Source of the DNA: Isosphaeraceae bacterium
Lineage (GTDB): Bacteria; Planctomycetota; Planctomycetia; Isosphaerales; Isosphaeraceae
Direction: 5' to 3'
Assembly: GCA_025356475.1 (NCBI GenBank)
Contig: JANXSX010000142.1
Coordinates: 1-60,786 of the forward strand
DNA length: 60,786 nt
Made by a program: the position numbers and the translations under genes. Numbering within the stretch: the first letter of the stretch is position 1; each line of letters begins with the position of its first letter. Positions 24,459-32,965 of this stretch are shown in pieces. Under the pieces are notes generated by a model. It was given only the letters and a program-made list of their open reading frames with translations. It did no database searches and was not told the origin of the DNA.

Positions 24459-26477
24459 ATGGCGGTTCGTCGGTCACGTATCGCGCTCGAACTACTGGCG
24501 TTGGCTCTGGTGATTGGGGCGATTGGGGCTACCGTCGCCTCAATCGTTGCGATCCAACAAAATAGTTTGGACCTCGCACGATTGCGGTCAAAGCCGCCGA
24601 CGGTGGTATTGCCTAGCATCGTCGAGACCAAAGTTGAGCCTGCACCCGTACCGCCCCCCTTGCCTATCCCACTTCCGCCGATCGACCCGACCCCTGAGCT
24701 TGTTGCCAAACTGGCCAGTGCGCGAGACGAAGAACGGAAGGCGGCGCTCGACCTTGATGCGAAAGCGATCGGGTTGGAAGAGGCCAGACGCAGGGCAGAG
24801 GTCGAGACGAAAGCCTTACAACGCCATGAAATGCTCGCCCGAACCCAGCTCGAGAGCCTCGATCAGAAGGCTCGACGTCTCGAAGAACAAGCATCAATGT
24901 TCGAGCTCGAACGAGATGTGCTCGCCATGGAGCGAGACGAAGCCAAGGCAGCGCTCGTCAAAGCTCAGCACCGGTCGAGTCACGCCGTGATGCCCCATCG
25001 CGGTTCCAACGGTACCTGGCAACGCCCTATTGTGATTGAGTGTGTGAATGGCGAGGCAATCGTCGCGCCCAACGGCCCAAGATTCACGCTCCTGGAACTT
25101 GCCAGCCTGGCCAATGTTCGGGGAAGTCGATTCGCGGAACTCATCTCTCGGCTGGCACTCGATACCCAGAGAAGCTCCGCCCCCGACGGCAGCGCTGTTG
25201 TGCCTTACATCTTCTTTCTCGTCCGGCCTGACGGGGTCCGGCCCTTCTACGAGGCACGATCCTGTCTCGAACCGCTCGGAATCGCTTTCGGTTACGAGCT
25301 TGTTGATCAAGACTGGGAGATCGATGTCCCGAATCTTGAGAAACCGGCGGATTGGGGGGAGGAATTTGCCAAGCCAACCAAAGCTCCCAGACTTGCGGAA
25401 TCCGCTCGACCCACAACGGACAGTACCGGCGACGGCCCAGGATCATACGTCTGGCCGAGTCAACGCGCTGCGACCCCTCGCTTGTTCAGTTCGGTTGACC
25501 CCGCCCATGCGACCGTAAATCGGAGAGCGCCCGGCCTGGTGGCGCAGGCCGATACTCGACCTCAAGGGAGGGGTTCAGGTACGGGCTCACAACAGGCAAG
25601 TGCCGATGGGAAGTTAACGAGGCAAGTCGGCAGCAAGCACGACGGATCACCCGCGAGCTTGGATGATCTAAAGCAGGGCGATTCGTCTGGAAGTTCTCGA
25701 CTCGGACCAAGCCAGCGAGGAGGTTCCGTTTCGGGTAGATCACTCTCAGGGTCGGAAGAGGGAAGCGATGACAGCCCGACTCCTTTCCTCTCTCCAAGAG
25801 AAATCGCCGAGATCAATGGGGCTCCCAGATCACGCGGAGGCCCAGAACTTTCAGAACTCGGCCTCTCCGCGTCGGGATCTGAGACGACTCGCTTCGAAGA
25901 CGCCAAGTCCGATCCGAACCCAAGTCGAACGGGAGGTTCCGCAGGCAAGAGTGGGTCCGGCAAATCGAACTCCCAACGCGCGGTCACATCCCGCGAGAAT
26001 TCGGAGGCCCAAGGGTCGGGCAGTCCCTCAGGTGGTCAACCGGGAGGCTCTCCGGGTATCCCTACCCTGTCCTTCGACGCGGGTCCAGAATCAGACTCGG
26101 CGCCCGCCCGAAGTCGTGGTTACAAGGAGTCTGAGCCACTACCTCGTCCGACGCGAACACTCGAAATCCAGGTTGTCTGCGGCCCGGATGGCGTCCTTCT
26201 CTACCCTGGCGCGTACAGATTGACCGCGGCCGCCCTTGCCGCCGATCCTGAGCGATTGCCCAAGCAACTGGCTGCGATTTTGAACGAGCAAGCGCTTCGG
26301 TATCAAGAGATTCGCTGGCGTCCCTCTTTGGTCTACAAGGTCGGTGCCGGGGGCAATTCCATCTATTGGGACGTAAGGCGGCAAACGATCATCGCCGCAG
26401 CAAGTTGGCCAAGTCGAGTCGAAATGGCTGAGACGACCAACACGGCATTCGCGCCAGGGGGGCGACTTCTGAAATGA
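24459..26477 (+). CDS. Membrane-anchored coiled-coil, Ser/Gly-rich protein (first of pair)
   Basis: A 672-aa protein I cannot assign to a named family. Residues 8-30 are a membrane anchor (LLALALVIGAIGATVASIVAI). A Pro-rich stretch (PAPVPPPLPIPLPPIDP) and an Ala/Glu/Arg coiled coil (about 85-165) follow. A globular part from about 185 (RPIVIECVNGEAIVAPNG ... VPYIFFLVRPDGVRPFYEARSCLEPLGIAFGYELVDQDW) comes next. A 270-residue Ser/Gly/Pro-rich linker leads to a C-terminal part (LEIQVVCGPDGVLLYPGAYRLT) that resembles the start of the first globular unit. GGAGG lies upstream of the start. It overlaps the next gene by ATGA, so the two are coupled and probably form an envelope complex. Confidence 0.75.
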   Translation: MAVRRSRIALELLALALVIGAIGATVASIVAIQQNSLDLARLRSKPPTVVLPSIVETKVEPAPVPPPLPIPLPPIDPTPELVAKLASARDEERKAALDLDAKAIGLEEARRRAEVETKALQRHEMLARTQLESLDQKARRLEEQASMFELERDVLAMERDEAKAALVKAQHRSSHAVMPHRGSNGTWQRPIVIECVNGEAIVAPNGPRFTLLELASLANVRGSRFAELISRLALDTQRSSAPDGSAVVPYIFFLVRPDGVRPFYEARSCLEPLGIAFGYELVDQDWEIDVPNLEKPADWGEEFAKPTKAPRLAESARPTTDSTGDGPGSYVWPSQRAATPRLFSSVDPAHATVNRRAPGLVAQADTRPQGRGSGTGSQQASADGKLTRQVGSKHDGSPASLDDLKQGDSSGSSRLGPSQRGGSVSGRSLSGSEEGSDDSPTPFLSPREIAEINGAPRSRGGPELSELGLSASGSETTRFEDAKSDPNPSRTGGSAGKSGSGKSNSQRAVTSRENSEAQGSGSPSGGQPGGSPGIPTLSFDAGPESDSAPARSRGYKESEPLPRPTRTLEIQVVCGPDGVLLYPGAYRLTAAALAADPERLPKQLAAILNEQALRYQEIRWRPSLVYKVGAGGNSIYWDVRRQTIIAAASWPSRVEMAETTNTAFAPGGRLLK

Positions 26478-27517
26478 ACACTTCACCATCATATTCATCA
26501 TTGATCCGCCTGACGACCGCGACGCTTGGACTGTCGGCGTGGGCGTTCTGGAGTTGGTTCGTACTCGAGAAACCATTGCCAGTTCCTGAAATTGTGATAT
26601 CAATACCAATTCCTGTTGAGCCGCCGGCTAAGGTCGTGGAAACCCCTGCCCCGCCTCTACCGGCAATCGCACAGGTCCTCCCGCCCGATCGTGTTTTGAT
26701 GGAGAGGGCCGAGGCCGATCTCGACGCAGTGAGCCGAGATCGGGCTCGGGCGGAGGCTCGCGCGTCGGATGCCGATCGTGCATTGCAGGCGGCTCTCGCG
26801 AAAACACGTGTGGCTTCGACCTCAGTCAAGACTCTCGCATATAAGGTACGCGACCCCTCAACTCGGATCGCACAGGCTTCGTCTCGAGGCGGATTTCTGA
26901 AGGCGGAACGCGACAAGCTTGAAGGCGAAGTGGCCGCAATCGCCTCAGCCCCCAGGCCGAAGCCTAACTCCATCATCTCCAAAAGCCCTGTGGCACGACC
27001 GACCCGAGGTAAGGAATATCATTTCGAGATCAGACGCGACCGGGTCACGACGATCGACCTCGAACGCATGCTCGAATTGATTAAATTGGATGCCAAGGTC
27101 AAGATGAGGCTCTCAAGCGGACGCAACGGTGTGATCGCGTCAAAGATCGGGCCGGTCGGTGCCTTCTCTCTCAACTACGAATTGCAGAGGTCCGGTGGCG
27201 GGTTGGAAGACTTGCTGGATAGCCGAGGAGGGGGTACGTACGACCTGGCTGGCTGGGAACTTATTCCCGAACGAGAAAATCGGGGCGAAACCCTGGAGAT
27301 CGCCCATCAGCCGACCTCGGAATATACACGATCCATCCATCGACTCTCGCCGAGTTCGGCAACGATCACCATGTGGGTTTATCCCGACGGCTTCAAGCTC
27401 TATCGGGCCCTACGCGATGAGCTGCACTCGCTGGGATTCACGGTCGCAGCCCGACCCATGCCCGAAACCATGACAATTCGGGGAAGCCCCTCCGGCTCTC
27501 ATTCGGCGGGGCAATGA
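26474..27517 (+). CDS. Membrane-anchored coiled-coil protein (second of pair)
   Basis: A 347-aa protein with the same plan as its upstream partner. It has one membrane segment (TLGLSAWAFWSWFVL), a Pro-rich stretch (PVEPPAKVVETPAPPLP), an Arg/Ala/Asp coiled coil (about 75-120) and a globular part from about 175. The end of that part (ATITMWVYPDGFKLYRALRDELHSLGFTVAARP) resembles VRPDGVRPFYEARSCLEPLGIAFGYELV in the partner. It starts at the ATG that overlaps the partner's stop. No enzyme motif is visible. The paired anchors and coiled coils suggest a hetero-oligomer spanning the periplasm; this is inference. Confidence 0.75.
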   Translation: MNTSPSYSSLIRLTTATLGLSAWAFWSWFVLEKPLPVPEIVISIPIPVEPPAKVVETPAPPLPAIAQVLPPDRVLMERAEADLDAVSRDRARAEARASDADRALQAALAKTRVASTSVKTLAYKVRDPSTRIAQASSRGGFLKAERDKLEGEVAAIASAPRPKPNSIISKSPVARPTRGKEYHFEIRRDRVTTIDLERMLELIKLDAKVKMRLSSGRNGVIASKIGPVGAFSLNYELQRSGGGLEDLLDSRGGGTYDLAGWELIPERENRGETLEIAHQPTSEYTRSIHRLSPSSATITMWVYPDGFKLYRALRDELHSLGFTVAARPMPETMTIRGSPSGSHSAGQ

Positions 27518-28034: not shown

Positions 28035-28940
28035 TCAGTTGAACAACGTACCCGTATTCAGGACAGGGTGCGCTTCGCCCTCGCCGCAGAGAATGACCAG
28101 CAAGTTGTTGACCATGGCCGCCTTACGATCATCGTCGAGTCGGACGATATCTTTGTCAGCAAGCTCGGTGAGAGCCATCTGAACCATGCTGACTGCTCCA
28201 TGCACGATCTTCTGTCGGGCCGCGATCACAGCCTCAGCCTGTTGACGACGGAGCATCACTCCCGCAATTTCGGGTGCATAGGCCAGGTGGGTCAATCGAG
28301 CCTCCTCGACATGAACACCCGCCTTCGAGAGTCGGTCTTGAAGTTCGGCACGGAGGGCGGTCGAGACCTCATCGACCCCACTTCTCAATGTGATTTCATG
28401 TTCCTCGCCATGGTCGTATGCATAGCTATTGGCCAGGTGCCTGACTGCGGTCTCGCTCTGGATCTGGACGAACTGTTCGTAGTTTTCGACGTCGAAAACC
28501 GCCTGAGCGGTGTCCTCCACCTTCCAGACAACGACAATCCCGATCTCGATAGGGTTGCCTTGCTTGTCATTGACTTTGAGTTTTGCCCCTTCAAGACTGC
28601 GGGACCGGAGTGACAGCTTTCGCTTGGTCATGAACGGGTTGGCCCAGAAGAACCCACTCTCCCGGACAGTCCCCCTGTACTCGCCGAACAGGCTCAACAG
28701 GCAAGCACCATTGGGCTGTAACGTGAAGAACCCCGCTGAGAGGACCAGTCCCCACGCGAATCCGACCACCCCCAAGAAGAGACAAATTAAGCCTGCGAAT
28801 GCCCCCGGAGTCGCCCCCTCGGAATTCGCCATCAGCCCAACTCCCGTGAAGAGCACGATTGGGCTCCCCAACAGAAACATCAAGGCCTGACCAAGCTTGG
28901 TCCAGCCACTCGACACCTTCACCGTCATCTCGCGACTCAT
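28035..28940 (-). CDS. SPFH/band-7 domain membrane protein
   Basis: A 301-aa protein of the prohibitin/stomatin/flotillin superfamily. Two N-terminal membrane helices (LMFLLGSPIVLFTGVGLM, GLICLFLGVVGFAWGLVLSAGFF) precede an SPFH domain. The domain has NPFMTKRKLSLRSRSLEGAKLKVNDKQGNPIEIGIVVVWKVEDTAQAVFDVENYEQFVQIQSETAVRHLA, and continues with a helical segment of the kind LSKAGVHVEEARLTHLAYAPEIAGVMLRRQQAEAVIAAR. These proteins form large membrane-bound rings that organise or protect other membrane proteins. The start has GGAGG 5 nt upstream. It is co-transcribed with the RHH gene, an arrangement I recall from other bacteria. Confidence 0.92.
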   Translation of the reverse strand: MSREMTVKVSSGWTKLGQALMFLLGSPIVLFTGVGLMANSEGATPGAFAGLICLFLGVVGFAWGLVLSAGFFTLQPNGACLLSLFGEYRGTVRESGFFWANPFMTKRKLSLRSRSLEGAKLKVNDKQGNPIEIGIVVVWKVEDTAQAVFDVENYEQFVQIQSETAVRHLANSYAYDHGEEHEITLRSGVDEVSTALRAELQDRLSKAGVHVEEARLTHLAYAPEIAGVMLRRQQAEAVIAARQKIVHGAVSMVQMALTELADKDIVRLDDDRKAAMVNNLLVILCGEGEAHPVLNTGTLFN

Positions 28941-29076: not shown

Positions 29077-30792
29077 TCAGACGGATTCGACAGACTCGAA
29101 CGCCTTAGAGATCAGCCCATAGCAGTCCTGGAATTGCTCAATGGTGCCACCCCAGGGATCCTCGATATACAGGGGGCCACTTGGGTTGAGGGCACCCACG
29201 AAATGGATCCGCCCGCGCGGGCACTGGAACTCGTTGGAAACGCGATCGGCATTCTCGGCATCGAAGACGAACACGGCAGCCGCTGCATGAACCATCTGTT
29301 TGGTCAGGAGTTGCGAGCGATGCCCTGTCAGGTCCACCCCCCATCTGGAGGCGGCGGTGATGGCATTGTCGGGAGAACTCCGACCGGGGCGAGGGTAGTA
29401 ACCTGCCGACATGATACTGCGGTTGCCACCCAGCTTCTGGCAGGCCAATTCCTCTGCGAACGGGGAGCGACAGATGTTCCCTTTGCAGATAAAGAGGAAC
29501 GAGCCCTCACCCCGCAGAGCCTTATGTGCGCGCTTGTAGAAGTGACGGCGAACCATGCCAAACTGAATAAATTTGCGAGCAAGCTTCCGACCAATGCCTC
29601 TTCGAATCCGGCCCACAACCTCCGCCAGCTCGGCAAAGCCGGGCCTCGGATCGTCGAGTGTGAGAGTGTCCCACCGCTCGCGGAGAAGCACAACGTTCGA
29701 GATCGTCTCACCGAGGACCGTCAGCAACGGTCGAGTCGACAAGGTCGGGTCGGACCGATCGGCACGCAAGTTCGAAATCTGCCAAGTGAAATCACTGTTT
29801 AGGTTTCGAGAGCAGATGCCTTTGCGATATGACTTCGGGAACTCTCGCTTACCGTCGACCAGAAACTGGACAAGTGCCAAAGGAAAATCGGCCCCCGATG
29901 CCACGGCTAGGGGCAGCGACCCCCAGAACCGACAGTTGACTTCGATCAAGACCCAATCTCCGGTCTTGGGTTCAACCTTAAACTCCACCATTGCGACGCC
30001 GGTGTACTTCAAAGCCTTCATGAGCTTCAGCGAGGCATCAAACAAAGCGGGTGTCAGCGTCACACTCTTACGATAGGAGCTACCCCCGCCGTGCAAAGGC
30101 TCATGCAAGCGGACATGTTGAAACGCCAACAGGGGCTCGCCCTGATCGAGCAGCAACTCGACACCGACACCCTCACCAATGAAGTTTTCCTGAACAGCAA
30201 CCGGGCCAAGCTGACTCATGCTGGCCAGGTGGGTATGGAATTCATCCCAGGTGTACGCTTTTCGCACCATCCGCTTGACGTCTGGCTTCGAAGCATCGAA
30301 CGATGTAGGGGGTTTGAGAACGACCGGTAAGTGCAAAACGCTGGTCACAGAGTGAGTGTCGCCAGGTCCAGCGACAACAACCTCACGAGGGACTCGAACG
30401 CCGACCGATCGGGCGAGTTCATTGGTTTGAAGCTTATCGGAAAAAACCTCAAATGATCGATCGTCCAGGAGATAGATCCGCCCATGGGGCTCGAAATCAG
30501 CTCGATTTCGCTGGAGTGGAACGAGAACCGGGTCGCTACACGGGATGATCAGATCGAACCGCTCGCGGACCATCAATTCAATGAGTGCATCTTTCCAAGC
30601 ATGATCTAGCGACGATGGCAAAGGGAGGTCATGAGCTTGCGAGATATAGCGAGACCGTAAAGGCGGTCCCCCTTGATGCCAGGCCACATGAACATCAAGG
30701 CCTCCGCGTCCCAGTGAGCGGATCACACTCAGGAACGACCGGGTGTCGTCGCCCAGGACCAAAACCTTATGTCTCGGAGTCACTAAAATCAT
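29077..30792 (-). CDS. ATP-grasp protein fused to low-molecular-weight protein tyrosine phosphatase
   Basis: A 571-aa cytoplasmic fusion. Residues 1-400 form an ATP-grasp ligase with a pre-ATP-grasp Rossmann part (KVLVLGDDTRSFLSVIRSLGRGG), an ATP lysine in LPVVLKPPTSFD, and the metal/phosphate region GDWVLIEVNCRFWGSLPLAVASGADFP, like carbamoyl-phosphate-synthase-type ligases. Residues 430-571 form a complete LMW-PTP: P-loop C436-KGNIC-R442-S and general acid D545 in DPWGG. Stand-alone LMW-PTPs control capsule kinases. Here fusion to a ligase suggests dephosphorylation or regulation within a glycan or peptide-modifying pathway. The start overlaps the deacetylase stop by ATGA. Confidence 0.9.
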   Translation of the reverse strand: MILVTPRHKVLVLGDDTRSFLSVIRSLGRGGLDVHVAWHQGGPPLRSRYISQAHDLPLPSSLDHAWKDALIELMVRERFDLIIPCSDPVLVPLQRNRADFEPHGRIYLLDDRSFEVFSDKLQTNELARSVGVRVPREVVVAGPGDTHSVTSVLHLPVVLKPPTSFDASKPDVKRMVRKAYTWDEFHTHLASMSQLGPVAVQENFIGEGVGVELLLDQGEPLLAFQHVRLHEPLHGGGSSYRKSVTLTPALFDASLKLMKALKYTGVAMVEFKVEPKTGDWVLIEVNCRFWGSLPLAVASGADFPLALVQFLVDGKREFPKSYRKGICSRNLNSDFTWQISNLRADRSDPTLSTRPLLTVLGETISNVVLLRERWDTLTLDDPRPGFAELAEVVGRIRRGIGRKLARKFIQFGMVRRHFYKRAHKALRGEGSFLFICKGNICRSPFAEELACQKLGGNRSIMSAGYYPRPGRSSPDNAITAASRWGVDLTGHRSQLLTKQMVHAAAAVFVFDAENADRVSNEFQCPRGRIHFVGALNPSGPLYIEDPWGGTIEQFQDCYGLISKAFESVESV

Positions 30793-31802
30793 GACCGAGA
30801 ATCCTTCGACGCGACGAAGTGGTCGTGGTACTCGCCCATCGTCCGCCCGATAAACGAGCCACGAGTCATCTCGAATAAGGCCTCGAGCGACTCGTAGAGG
30901 GTCTCGATTGCTCGCTCATCAGGGAAGGTGGGGCTTCCCCCCGGCATTAACTCCGACGAATGGATCATGAACTCAGCGTAGTCTCTTCCTTCATGGGTTG
31001 TGACATTGACCACCGAACGTAACCGTGACCCCGACCCACTCCGAGGTCGGAGCCAGGCACGTTCTGGGAGCAGCCGATTCGCGACGGCCGCCCCTAAACG
31101 GTTCTTCACCAGCAGTCGCCTCGTTGCCCTCACCGGTGGTGAGTAGGAGAACTCAACGATAGTCACAGGGACTTCTAACAAAGGTGAACTCCCGGCCAAG
31201 CAGATATCCATTGGATCGAGAAAATAGGCCGACTCCGGGAACCGGCGGTAGTCGGTTCCTCCCGACCTCAAGGGGTCACCTTTTTGTGCTGCCCACGACA
31301 CATGCGGAGTCACCGAACAATCAACCCGATATCCATATTCTACAAGTGCGCGGGCATATGTTTCGTTAAAGCTCCAACGACCTGCCCTGTGGCTGATCAT
31401 GTCCACCTCGAAGGTTTCCTCGAGCAATTCCGTCATGAGCTTGACCTTGGCGCGGATCTGGTCCTCAGGGTACTCGATCAGGTAGGGTTGGTGGATGTCG
31501 TCATTGTCGGTCAACGGCACGATTGGTGGTGCATTCCACGCATGCAAGTGCATACCAATCTCACCGACTTGACGCGCCACTACATCCCGTCCAAAATCGC
31601 GGAAGTCGGGGCACCGAGCCATCTCCCAGTTCGTCAGATACGTGGGCTTGAGGCTGAACTTTTCGCAGAGGGCCTGGAACCTTGGCAGGCTCCGTGAGTT
31701 CCGTGTCGTTACCTCACGAGGCTTCGACCAGAGGTTATCCCCCTCCGTATCGATCGTGATCAAGAACGACGGAAGCCGTTTGATCGAAATCTGATTACTC
31801 AT
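30789..31802 (-). CDS. WalW-type polysaccharide deacetylase
   Basis: A 337-aa NodB-fold hydrolase without a signal peptide. SFLITIDTEGDNLWSKPREVTTRNSRSLPRFQALCEKFSLKPTYLTNWEMA holds the first catalytic motif (TIDTEGD). VGEIGMHLHAWNAPP supplies the metal His-x-His motif, and FEVDMISHRAGRWSFNETYARALVEYGYRVDCSVTPH supplies the R.GRWSF motif. This matches the WalW family found in LPS and capsule gene clusters, where it would remove N-acetyl groups from a cytoplasmic sugar or lipid-linked intermediate. It lies between the TylF-like gene (59 nt upstream) and the ATP-grasp/phosphatase gene (4-nt overlap). Confidence 0.88.
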   Translation of the reverse strand: MSNQISIKRLPSFLITIDTEGDNLWSKPREVTTRNSRSLPRFQALCEKFSLKPTYLTNWEMARCPDFRDFGRDVVARQVGEIGMHLHAWNAPPIVPLTDNDDIHQPYLIEYPEDQIRAKVKLMTELLEETFEVDMISHRAGRWSFNETYARALVEYGYRVDCSVTPHVSWAAQKGDPLRSGGTDYRRFPESAYFLDPMDICLAGSSPLLEVPVTIVEFSYSPPVRATRRLLVKNRLGAAVANRLLPERAWLRPRSGSGSRLRSVVNVTTHEGRDYAEFMIHSSELMPGGSPTFPDERAIETLYESLEALFEMTRGSFIGRTMGEYHDHFVASKDSRS

Positions 31803-31861
31803 TTATGTAGATTCCGAGGTCTCAGGTCTGGATGCCGGAGCAGCATTTCCCGCAAATACGT

Positions 31862-32671
31862 TCAGACGATCCGATTCTGACGGAACTTCTCACCTTGAGG
31901 TGTAATCATTCGACTGTATGATGGATGATCAAATTCGTGATGAACATAGATTTGTTCATTCCATCGTGCCGGATGTGGACGCATCCATGTAAGGTTCGCA
32001 AGCTTGGCCACCTTACGTCGGTCCTGCTCCTCGTTGTATTCCCGGATCGCGCAGAGTTCGCCGGTAAAGTCGTTATGACATGCATGCTCGGGCCAAACAA
32101 CGTCATCGAAATAGCAATAAACCCTCGGCAACCGTGTCTCGCAAGGACCATCGAAAACGCCGAAGGCCGTCTTGGTCGAGCTATAATAGTCGAGATCGAA
32201 CGAAACGAAGGCGATAGGTGCAAGGTCCGTGCGATTGAGGAACTGGGGCAGAGTGTCTTGGAGATTTCCAAGGACCAACTCCGCTTTGCGAAGACGCGCT
32301 CGGAGTTTTTCGGGCTCCATCCTGTAGAATCCTTCCTCCCAAACGTACGGAAGGTCACGATAGTCTACGGGCGGTGGCATACCGGTCCCCGTGTCGAACC
32401 CGTATACCTGAATGTTGATACCCAACTCGTCGCTGACCTGACGGGCGATCTCTTCAAGCTGCAAGAGCCCGTTTCCACCGGCTACACCGAATTCGATGAC
32501 GCTGATCTTGTCGAGACCCAAAGTCTTCGCGAGCTTCGCCGAGGAATAAACCCCGTAGGCATAAGCCTTTCGATCCCAAATATCGTGCTCAGTCCGTAAC
32601 GCGACCGAACCGATCGGGAACTTCAACCAGAGCCGGCGAAAACCTGGAATGCGAGACAGTAGGCGAATCAC
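31862..32671 (-). CDS. TylF/MycF-like SAM-dependent methyltransferase-fold protein
   Basis: A protein of about 269 aa. VIEFGVAGGNGLLQLEEIA corresponds to the SAM-binding motif I, YGFDTGTGMPPPVDYRD to motif II with an acidic residue, and SFDLDYYSSTKTAF and YCYFDDVVW resemble the metal-binding Asp region of TylF/MycF sugar O-methyltransferases. Such proteins are frequent in exopolysaccharide clusters. The GTG at 32671 with GAGG 8 nt upstream is preferred; the frame extends to a GTG at 32719 without such a site. It leads the three-gene operon with the deacetylase and the ATP-grasp/phosphatase. The acceptor is unknown and catalysis is unproven. Confidence 0.72.
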   Translation of the reverse strand: MIRLLSRIPGFRRLWLKFPIGSVALRTEHDIWDRKAYAYGVYSSAKLAKTLGLDKISVIEFGVAGGNGLLQLEEIARQVSDELGINIQVYGFDTGTGMPPPVDYRDLPYVWEEGFYRMEPEKLRARLRKAELVLGNLQDTLPQFLNRTDLAPIAFVSFDLDYYSSTKTAFGVFDGPCETRLPRVYCYFDDVVWPEHACHNDFTGELCAIREYNEEQDRRKVAKLANLTWMRPHPARWNEQIYVHHEFDHPSYSRMITPQGEKFRQNRIV

Positions 32672-32965
32672 AAACTTAACCTCAGAAGGACAATAATGAG
32701 AACGCTCCGGCCTGAACACGAGCCGTGAGATCAGGTCGCTTCCCCCGACCCAAACGAAGCATAAGATTCAGGGAACTTGTGCGGCAATGTCAAGGGTTAT
32801 GGCGAGGTTAAGCCAATTTTAACAAGGCCTGACTCACCTGAGCGATTGAGCAATCGGCTGTGCGACCAATCGAAACGACTGCGGTACACCTACACAGTGG
32901 GGGTCGTTTCGGGTAGATTCTGCTGAGGGTTGCTTCGATTCTTTTTTCGCGGTTGGACCTACCTG

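Follow-up and report, generated by a model that had tools for sequence, protein, structure and literature searches.

The window analysed here is a whole contig of 60.8 kb (JANXSX010000142.1, our contig C124) from the 5.92-Mb draft genome, in 232 contigs, of an Isosphaeraceae bacterium. On its minus strand lies a gene whose product joins an ATP-grasp domain to a low-molecular-weight protein tyrosine phosphatase (LMW-PTP), together with a WalW-like gene of the polysaccharide-deacetylase fold and a gene for a TylF-like putative sugar O-methyltransferase. Taken together, the data point to a real and conserved domain fusion of recognisable kind that is apparently undescribed and lies largely in surface-glycan loci. 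A preliminary description of this DNA had presented the three genes as a compact pathway for modifying an envelope glycan or a small peptide. A ligase and a phosphatase in one chain, linked to glycan genes, remain from that description. The self-contained three-gene system did not hold up, as the fusion occurs widely and in varying company (two deacetylase types, flippases, glycosyltransferases, sulfotransferase-like genes and exosortase A genes). The finding is more general and less self-contained than had been supposed, and the three-gene set represents one local layout within a broad family.

An ATP-grasp ligase fused to a complete LMW-PTP had been read from the letters of the window, and the Pfam domains agreed with it. 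LMWPc (PF01451) matched residues 432-565 of the fusion with an E-value of 2.3e-18 (67.2 bits against a cut-off of 23.2), and the ATP-grasp models PF15632 and PF02786 were both above cut-off, with ATP-grasp matches at residues 205-326 and 249-298. The intact P-loop (C436-X5-R442) and the acid D545 were confirmed, and both sets of catalytic residues are intact. In an alignment of the window fusion with 65 others (66 rows; the frame-broken L133 was left out), the PTP residues C436, G438, N439, R442, S443, D545 and P546 were invariant in all 66, as were K160, E284, N286 and R288 of the ATP-grasp half and D381 of the linker, while K120 was kept in 65 with one gap. The mean identity to the window protein across this alignment was 39% in the ATP-grasp part and 33% in the PTP part. 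We take the conserved Lys, Glu, Asn and Arg of the ATP-grasp half to be the catalytic positions of ATP-grasp ligases; these residues and the ligase fold are both present in the window fusion. Neither half looks decayed from its sequence.

Structure prediction, which had been suggested as a check, gave a confident overall model of the fusion (AlphaFold2, mean pLDDT 93.9, pTM 0.88). When this model was compared with solved structures by VIA-align 2, in which rows within 1 Z unit were treated as tied and the fold rows covered fusion residues 4-399, 2pn1 came first (Z 26.9, rmsd 2.6, 288 aligned) and PylC next (Z 26.7, rmsd 3.0, 295 aligned). The L-amino acid ligase 3vot (Z 25.2), PurK and biotin carboxylase were also within two units of the top. 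The likeness to L-amino acid ligases would suit an enzyme that makes a free, small peptide-like metabolite or lipid unrelated to the glycan, with neighbours that are coincidental. However, glycan-assembly neighbours recur across phyla, and we regard this explanation as improbable. For the PTP half, the best PDB sequence matches were low-molecular-weight protein phosphatases, AmsI and Wzb among them.

One genome for each of 84,980 species was scanned for relatives, and the best 80 loci of at least 541 confirmed relatives, chosen by similarity, were kept. ATP-grasp and PTP lay in one open frame in 66 of these 80. The phylum labels of the fused rows are Planctomycetota, Pseudomonadota, Acidobacteriota, Nitrospirota, Gemmatimonadota, Myxococcota, Poribacteria, Krumholzibacteriota, Rokuibacteriota and Calditrichota. 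Many of the rows are metagenome bins, and the one labelled Calditrichota is nearly identical to one labelled Myxococcota, which makes one of these two labels doubtful. Among the remaining 14 loci, a separate adjacent PTP gene was co-directional in four (L122, L128, L129, L138) and on the opposite strand in two (L132, L137), three (L118, L131, L136) stop at or close to the limit of the available stretch, and ATP-grasp stands alone in five (L067, L085, L139, L140, L141). In the split version seen in three Nitrospira loci, a stand-alone LMW-PTP gene starts 3 nt after the ATP-grasp stop, and the separate PTP of L128 matched PF01451 at E 1.6e-32. Over 384 ATP-grasp columns, the PTP-less L067 shares 58% identity with the window. 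On a quick ATP-grasp tree (22 of 79 inner branches open, no bootstraps), the fused or unfused state changed 8 times, a number that may be inflated by the unfused L118, L131 and L136, which end at or near the stretch end.

In the phylum set, for which three candidates per genome were scored and both strands were scanned for PTP, an ATP-grasp match at E <= 1e-25 was obtained in 27 of 392 genomes, and five of them, including that of the window, had a PTP in the same frame. Two of the 59 relatives searched carry the fusion besides the window's genome, one of them (G008) broken over two frames. The idea that the fusion is special to the source genome was rejected because it was found across both the species scan and the phylum set. 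A phage or viral origin was also rejected, since the 43 pattern matches in viral_contigs had no relative among them.

Some other features of these sequences were noted. The ATP-grasp part is broken over two frames in L004:869-2634 (G008) and in L035 (G248), by sequencing error or as a real split. In L121, a fused ATP-grasp/PTP is accompanied by a further LMW-PTP-like gene that stands alone, three genes downstream. The locus set includes an identical fusion pair (L033/L119), from a genome of the phylum set (G180) and a bin named Planctomycetota, and a near-identical pair (L070/L091); the latter two also share a near-identical upstream GNAT-like gene, and their bins are labelled Deltaproteobacteria and Calditrichaceae, so that one label is probably wrong. 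The other LMW-PTP match of the source genome (G000) is C-terminal in a 386-aa frame on contig C142 (L061:10126-11283), presumably a Sua5/YrdC-PTP fusion, and in many relatives PTP matches fall within frames of about 370-430 aa.

The neighbours were compared in 72 fusion loci (66 of the best 80, the window and five further genomes). Genes were called by our own open-reading-frame rule with homology support and clustered by BLAST, families were assigned by our own cluster profiles, and cluster representatives alone were checked with NCBIfam and Pfam. A polysaccharide deacetylase was the immediate same-strand neighbour in 30 of the 72 loci and lay within three same-strand genes in 37. By slot, it was found in 30/139 at ±1, 8/241 at ±2 and 3, and 7/306 at ±4 to 6; these are raw counts, with neither operon strand nor kinship corrected for. 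The ATP-grasp tree has 68 fused rows, and across them the deacetylase label (NodB, WalW or none) changed no fewer than 11 times; its type or presence has therefore been switched repeatedly, although the count is blind to gain versus loss. Flippases, glycosyltransferases and FemAB/GNAT-type genes are common in the loci. Exosortase A-associated hydrolases 1 and 2, the O-glycosylation ligase and an acyl-CoA ligase were above cut-off, the amidotransferase representative is related to TIGR03108 but at 261 bits stays below its cut-off of 817, and of the two sulfotransferase clusters one was under cut-off. A PEP-CTERM protein is encoded directly before the fusion in L098, and the neighbour in L081 belongs to the same cluster. 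Whether the fusion would have unrelated neighbours in other genomes had been raised in the preliminary description; the neighbours do vary, but those that can be named are mostly glycan-assembly genes.

An annotated example was seen on a 174-kb plasmid of Vibrio alfacsensis (NZ_CP140104.1, L162, 48051-89769). Its fusion is annotated as 'ATP-grasp domain-containing protein' and overlaps by 4 nt a 'hypothetical protein' that scored 350 bits with the WalW-like profile. The surroundings hold PrsT, PrsK, PrsR, PEP-CTERM proteins, the exosortase A O-glycosylation ligase and an integrase.

Among 23 genomes that carry the fusion or the split version, an exosortase was present in 20 and absent from the other three. 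It lay on the same contig within about 45 kb in 11 of the 23, namely ten of 15 Pseudomonadota and one labelled Acidobacteria. In one order, four of 95 genomes have the fusion, all four with an exosortase 12-16 kb away on the same contig, and an exosortase occurs anywhere in 40 of the 95. Among the relatives of the window, exosortase presence was dropped as evidence, and it says little there because 51 of 59 genomes, the source included, have one at E <= 1e-20; the position of the exosortase is more informative. The TIGR03018 bacterial tyrosine kinase (BY-kinase) was over cut-off in 13 of the 23 genomes searched; in 11 of these it shared a contig with the fusion at a distance of 18-50 kb, and in two it was on another contig. 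A place in BY-kinase-bearing regions would also be expected if the fusion were a phosphatase of the Wzb type in which the ATP-grasp half senses a nucleotide instead of acting as a ligase. The ATP-grasp catalytic residues that are invariant in all 66 rows, and PTP-less relatives such as L067, argue against a sensor, which we consider highly improbable.

From these data we tentatively propose that the fusion is a bifunctional glycan-assembly enzyme, in which ATP-grasp amide formation on a glycan precursor is combined with a PTP regulating assembly. The protein would be cytoplasmic and act in exopolysaccharide or surface-glycan assembly. Its ATP-grasp half would activate a carboxylate with ATP and attach it in amide linkage to a building block of the glycan; the likeliest case is an amino acid, or an acid like it, linked to the nitrogen of an amino sugar after the neighbouring deacetylase has exposed it. 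In the window, an O-methyl group would come from the TylF-like partner. The LMW-PTP half would dephosphorylate the phosphotyrosine of an assembly protein, most plausibly the BY-kinase, and ligation would thereby be tied to polymer assembly.

Several observations weigh against this proposal. The fold leaves the reaction of the ATP-grasp half unfixed because PylC is tied with PurK, and ATP-grasp relatives without any PTP exist. FemAB-like genes occur in several loci as analogues of VimA, discussed below, and the aminoacyl step could be theirs. In 35 of the 72 loci there was no deacetylase within three same-strand genes, and the other ±1 neighbours included a GT2-type glycosyltransferase in 16 slots, a flippase in 13 and a sulfotransferase-like gene in 9. 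The deacetylase is therefore the commonest partner but not a fixed one. WalW-like genes were found in 33 of the 392 genomes of the phylum set, with five candidates scored per genome, and by their listed places, at the thresholds used, that of the window is the only one beside a fusion. A two-way pairing of WalW and the fusion was not supported, because WalW-like genes occur in many genomes without an adjacent fusion; as far as the sequence surveys go, the deacetylase is not specific to the fusion. The loci without a deacetylase would also fit an ATP-grasp half that joins an amine to the carboxylate of a uronic acid, giving a polymer amide, with the deacetylase working on another sugar in that polymer. 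The same loci contain relatives of the XrtA amidotransferase, and amidated uronic acids are therefore plausible there. Nevertheless, the frequency of the deacetylase falls away from the fusion, suggesting a closer link, and we hold the uronic acid amide to be unlikely.

The regulatory role assigned to the PTP half in our proposal also meets contrary evidence. No BY-kinase or exosortase match was obtained on the window contig; the exosortases of the source genome lie on contigs C90 and C179, and its nine kinase matches are all on contigs other than C124. Moreover, a stand-alone LMW-PTP was located 14-33 kb from the kinase in four of the 11 genomes with a nearby kinase (none was listed within 50 kb in the other seven), so the fusion is not the sole candidate phosphatase of the kinase. 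The missing kinase on the window contig, the single chain, the same domain order in the fusions seen and the confident overall model would all suit a PTP half that is catalytic in the same small-molecule pathway and removes phosphate from a sugar or acyl substrate before or after ligation. On the other hand, its P-loop and DP loop are of the LMW-PTP type, its best PDB sequence matches are protein phosphatases, and the fusion is near BY-kinase genes in most genomes with an over-cut-off kinase. A purely catalytic PTP half therefore appears unlikely to us.

The arrangement in the window is given in Table 1. The coordinates and the tight spacing that had been reported for the three genes were confirmed; all three are on the minus strand, the deacetylase and fusion genes overlap by 4 nt, and a gap of 59 nt separates the TylF-like gene from the deacetylase gene. 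Translational coupling from the deacetylase to the fusion through the ATGA overlap is likely, and the three genes may be co-transcribed. The promoter scan of the locus found 2 sites against 2.0 expected, and 7 terminator-like sites were found against 3.7 expected (sd 1.9), all within genes; neither scan gave a clear operon boundary. A Band-7 protein gene follows downstream on the same strand (28035-28940), and the upstream neighbour, a PSP1-domain gene, is on the opposite strand. Elsewhere in the window, two adjoining long open reading frames of 672 and 347 aa (24459-27517, plus strand) had no Pfam match at E 0.001.

Table 1. Coordinates of the three genes, the two domains of the fusion and the gene overlap in the window
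Feature	Position	Strand	Remarks
ATP-grasp/LMW-PTP fusion, 571 aa	29077-30792	minus	ATP-grasp at about residues 5-396, helical linker, LMW-PTP at about 431-566
WalW-like polysaccharide-deacetylase-fold protein, 337 aa	30789-31802	minus	HxH motif and C-terminal HS motif
TylF/CalS11-like putative sugar O-methyltransferase, 285 aa	31862-32719	minus	Partial CalS11 match, Gemmata homologue
LMW-PTP domain of the fusion	29095-29502	minus	P-loop C436-R442, acid D545
ATP-grasp domain of the fusion	29605-30780	minus	K160, E284, N286, R288, K120
ATGA, deacetylase stop/fusion start, 4-nt overlap	30789-30792	minus	Sequence

The label of WalW deacetylase stood in part. The Pfam search of the window protein gave no family at E 1, PF01522 included, and only 3 of 17 members of its alignment matched PF01522 (best E 0.0042). 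The predicted fold, however, matched solved polysaccharide deacetylases. With the model (pLDDT 87.7), Foldseek returned 3rxz at the top (E 7.8e-10), followed by ArnD 8t0j (1.1e-8) and HP0310 3qbu (1.5e-7), and WbmS was also listed. The CE4 deacetylases have an Asp-His-His metal site. In the alignment of 17 rows, H85, H87 and E20 were invariant, and the motif-1 Asp, which is Asp in the window, was His in 5 of 17. The model suggests that the window protein has a NodB-type polysaccharide deacetylase fold.

The label of TylF-like methyltransferase is weak: no Pfam family was matched at E 0.1, methyltransferase families included, and the sole PDB match (phmmer) was a partial one to the TDP-rhamnose 3'-O-methyltransferase CalS11 (E 9e-4, residues 145-189). 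Among 86 loci scanned, a TylF-like partner stood beside the fusion only in the window and in Gemmata sp. IIL30. In the latter, a 65% identical TylF-like gene directly precedes the fusion and a NodB-type deacetylase gene follows it, and for this reason the three-gene arrangement is more than chance. A Methyltransf_24 gene lies beside the fusion in L033 and L060 (by Pfam) and in L035 (by cluster). The TylF-like gene was rejected as a fixed partner of the fusion because two further homologues (E <= 1e-30, 392 genomes) had no ATP-grasp/PTP profile match in the 20 and 12 kb read around them, the second gene being 1.5 kb from a contig end with one side mostly unseen.

The preliminary description knew of no characterised equivalent, and we found none in open-access full texts, judged by title and start of abstract, with subscription papers and preprints mostly outside; PMC12419801, as far as its text was available, concerns other ATP-grasp operons. 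The two-activity family extends over about ten phylum labels, and the annotated plasmid records seen call its members nothing more specific than 'ATP-grasp domain-containing protein'. A ligase and a predicted phosphotyrosine phosphatase in one polypeptide, within surface-polysaccharide loci of which many belong to the exosortase system, would give a concrete gene to test.

Among known systems, the XrtA/PEP-CTERM exopolysaccharide loci share their hydrolase 1/2, O-glycosylation ligase, amidotransferase-like, FemAB-like, flippase and deacetylase genes with the surroundings of many Pseudomonadota fusions. In contrast to these loci, the contig of the window fusion has no exosortase, and the main text of their description by Haft in 2006 (PMC1569441) is without the words 'ATP-grasp', 'phosphatase' or 'ligase'.

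The Wbp/Vim pathway for the T9SS linking sugar (Veith 2020, PMC7468200) is similar in its proposed chemistry. According to the part of that article available, VimE, a putative CE4 deacetylase, is proposed to uncover an amine to which VimA would add Ser or Gly, and the resulting 2-N-aminoacyl sugars are proposed for C-terminal anchoring with an AsnB-like amidotransferase. The deacetylation, the amino acid on the exposed amine and the AsnB-like amidation resemble the scheme proposed for the fusion, but the amino acid is attributed there to VimA, which is N-acetyltransferase/FemAB-like, and 'ATP-grasp' is absent from the text. Similar genes beside exosortases are also mentioned, a sugar modified with an amino acid is speculated there, and the partner of exosortase attachment is called unidentified (PMC7468200). 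By extension, the ATP-grasp/PTP enzyme and the deacetylase might make an amino-acid-bearing sugar that exosortase A joins to cleaved PEP-CTERM C termini, gated by tyrosine phosphorylation. We regard this as the least probable of the ideas put forward here; if true, the attachment partner of the exosortase would be an aminoacyl sugar.

The two halves of the fusion also have separate counterparts. The carbamoyl phosphate synthase-like proteins of NCBIfam PRK12767 have the ATP-grasp match in common with the fusion (E 1.2e-18), but the score of 67 bits is far under the cut-off of 390, and the fusion is not a member. PylC and the L-amino acid ligases have a fold like that of the ATP-grasp half, whereas their identity is about 15-16% and the alignment spans this half alone. 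Wzb and AmsI, the tyrosine phosphatases of capsule loci, have the same domain and the same catalytic residues as the PTP half; their PDB chains are single domains of 150-170 aa, whereas the PTP of the fusion is joined to a ligase-like domain.

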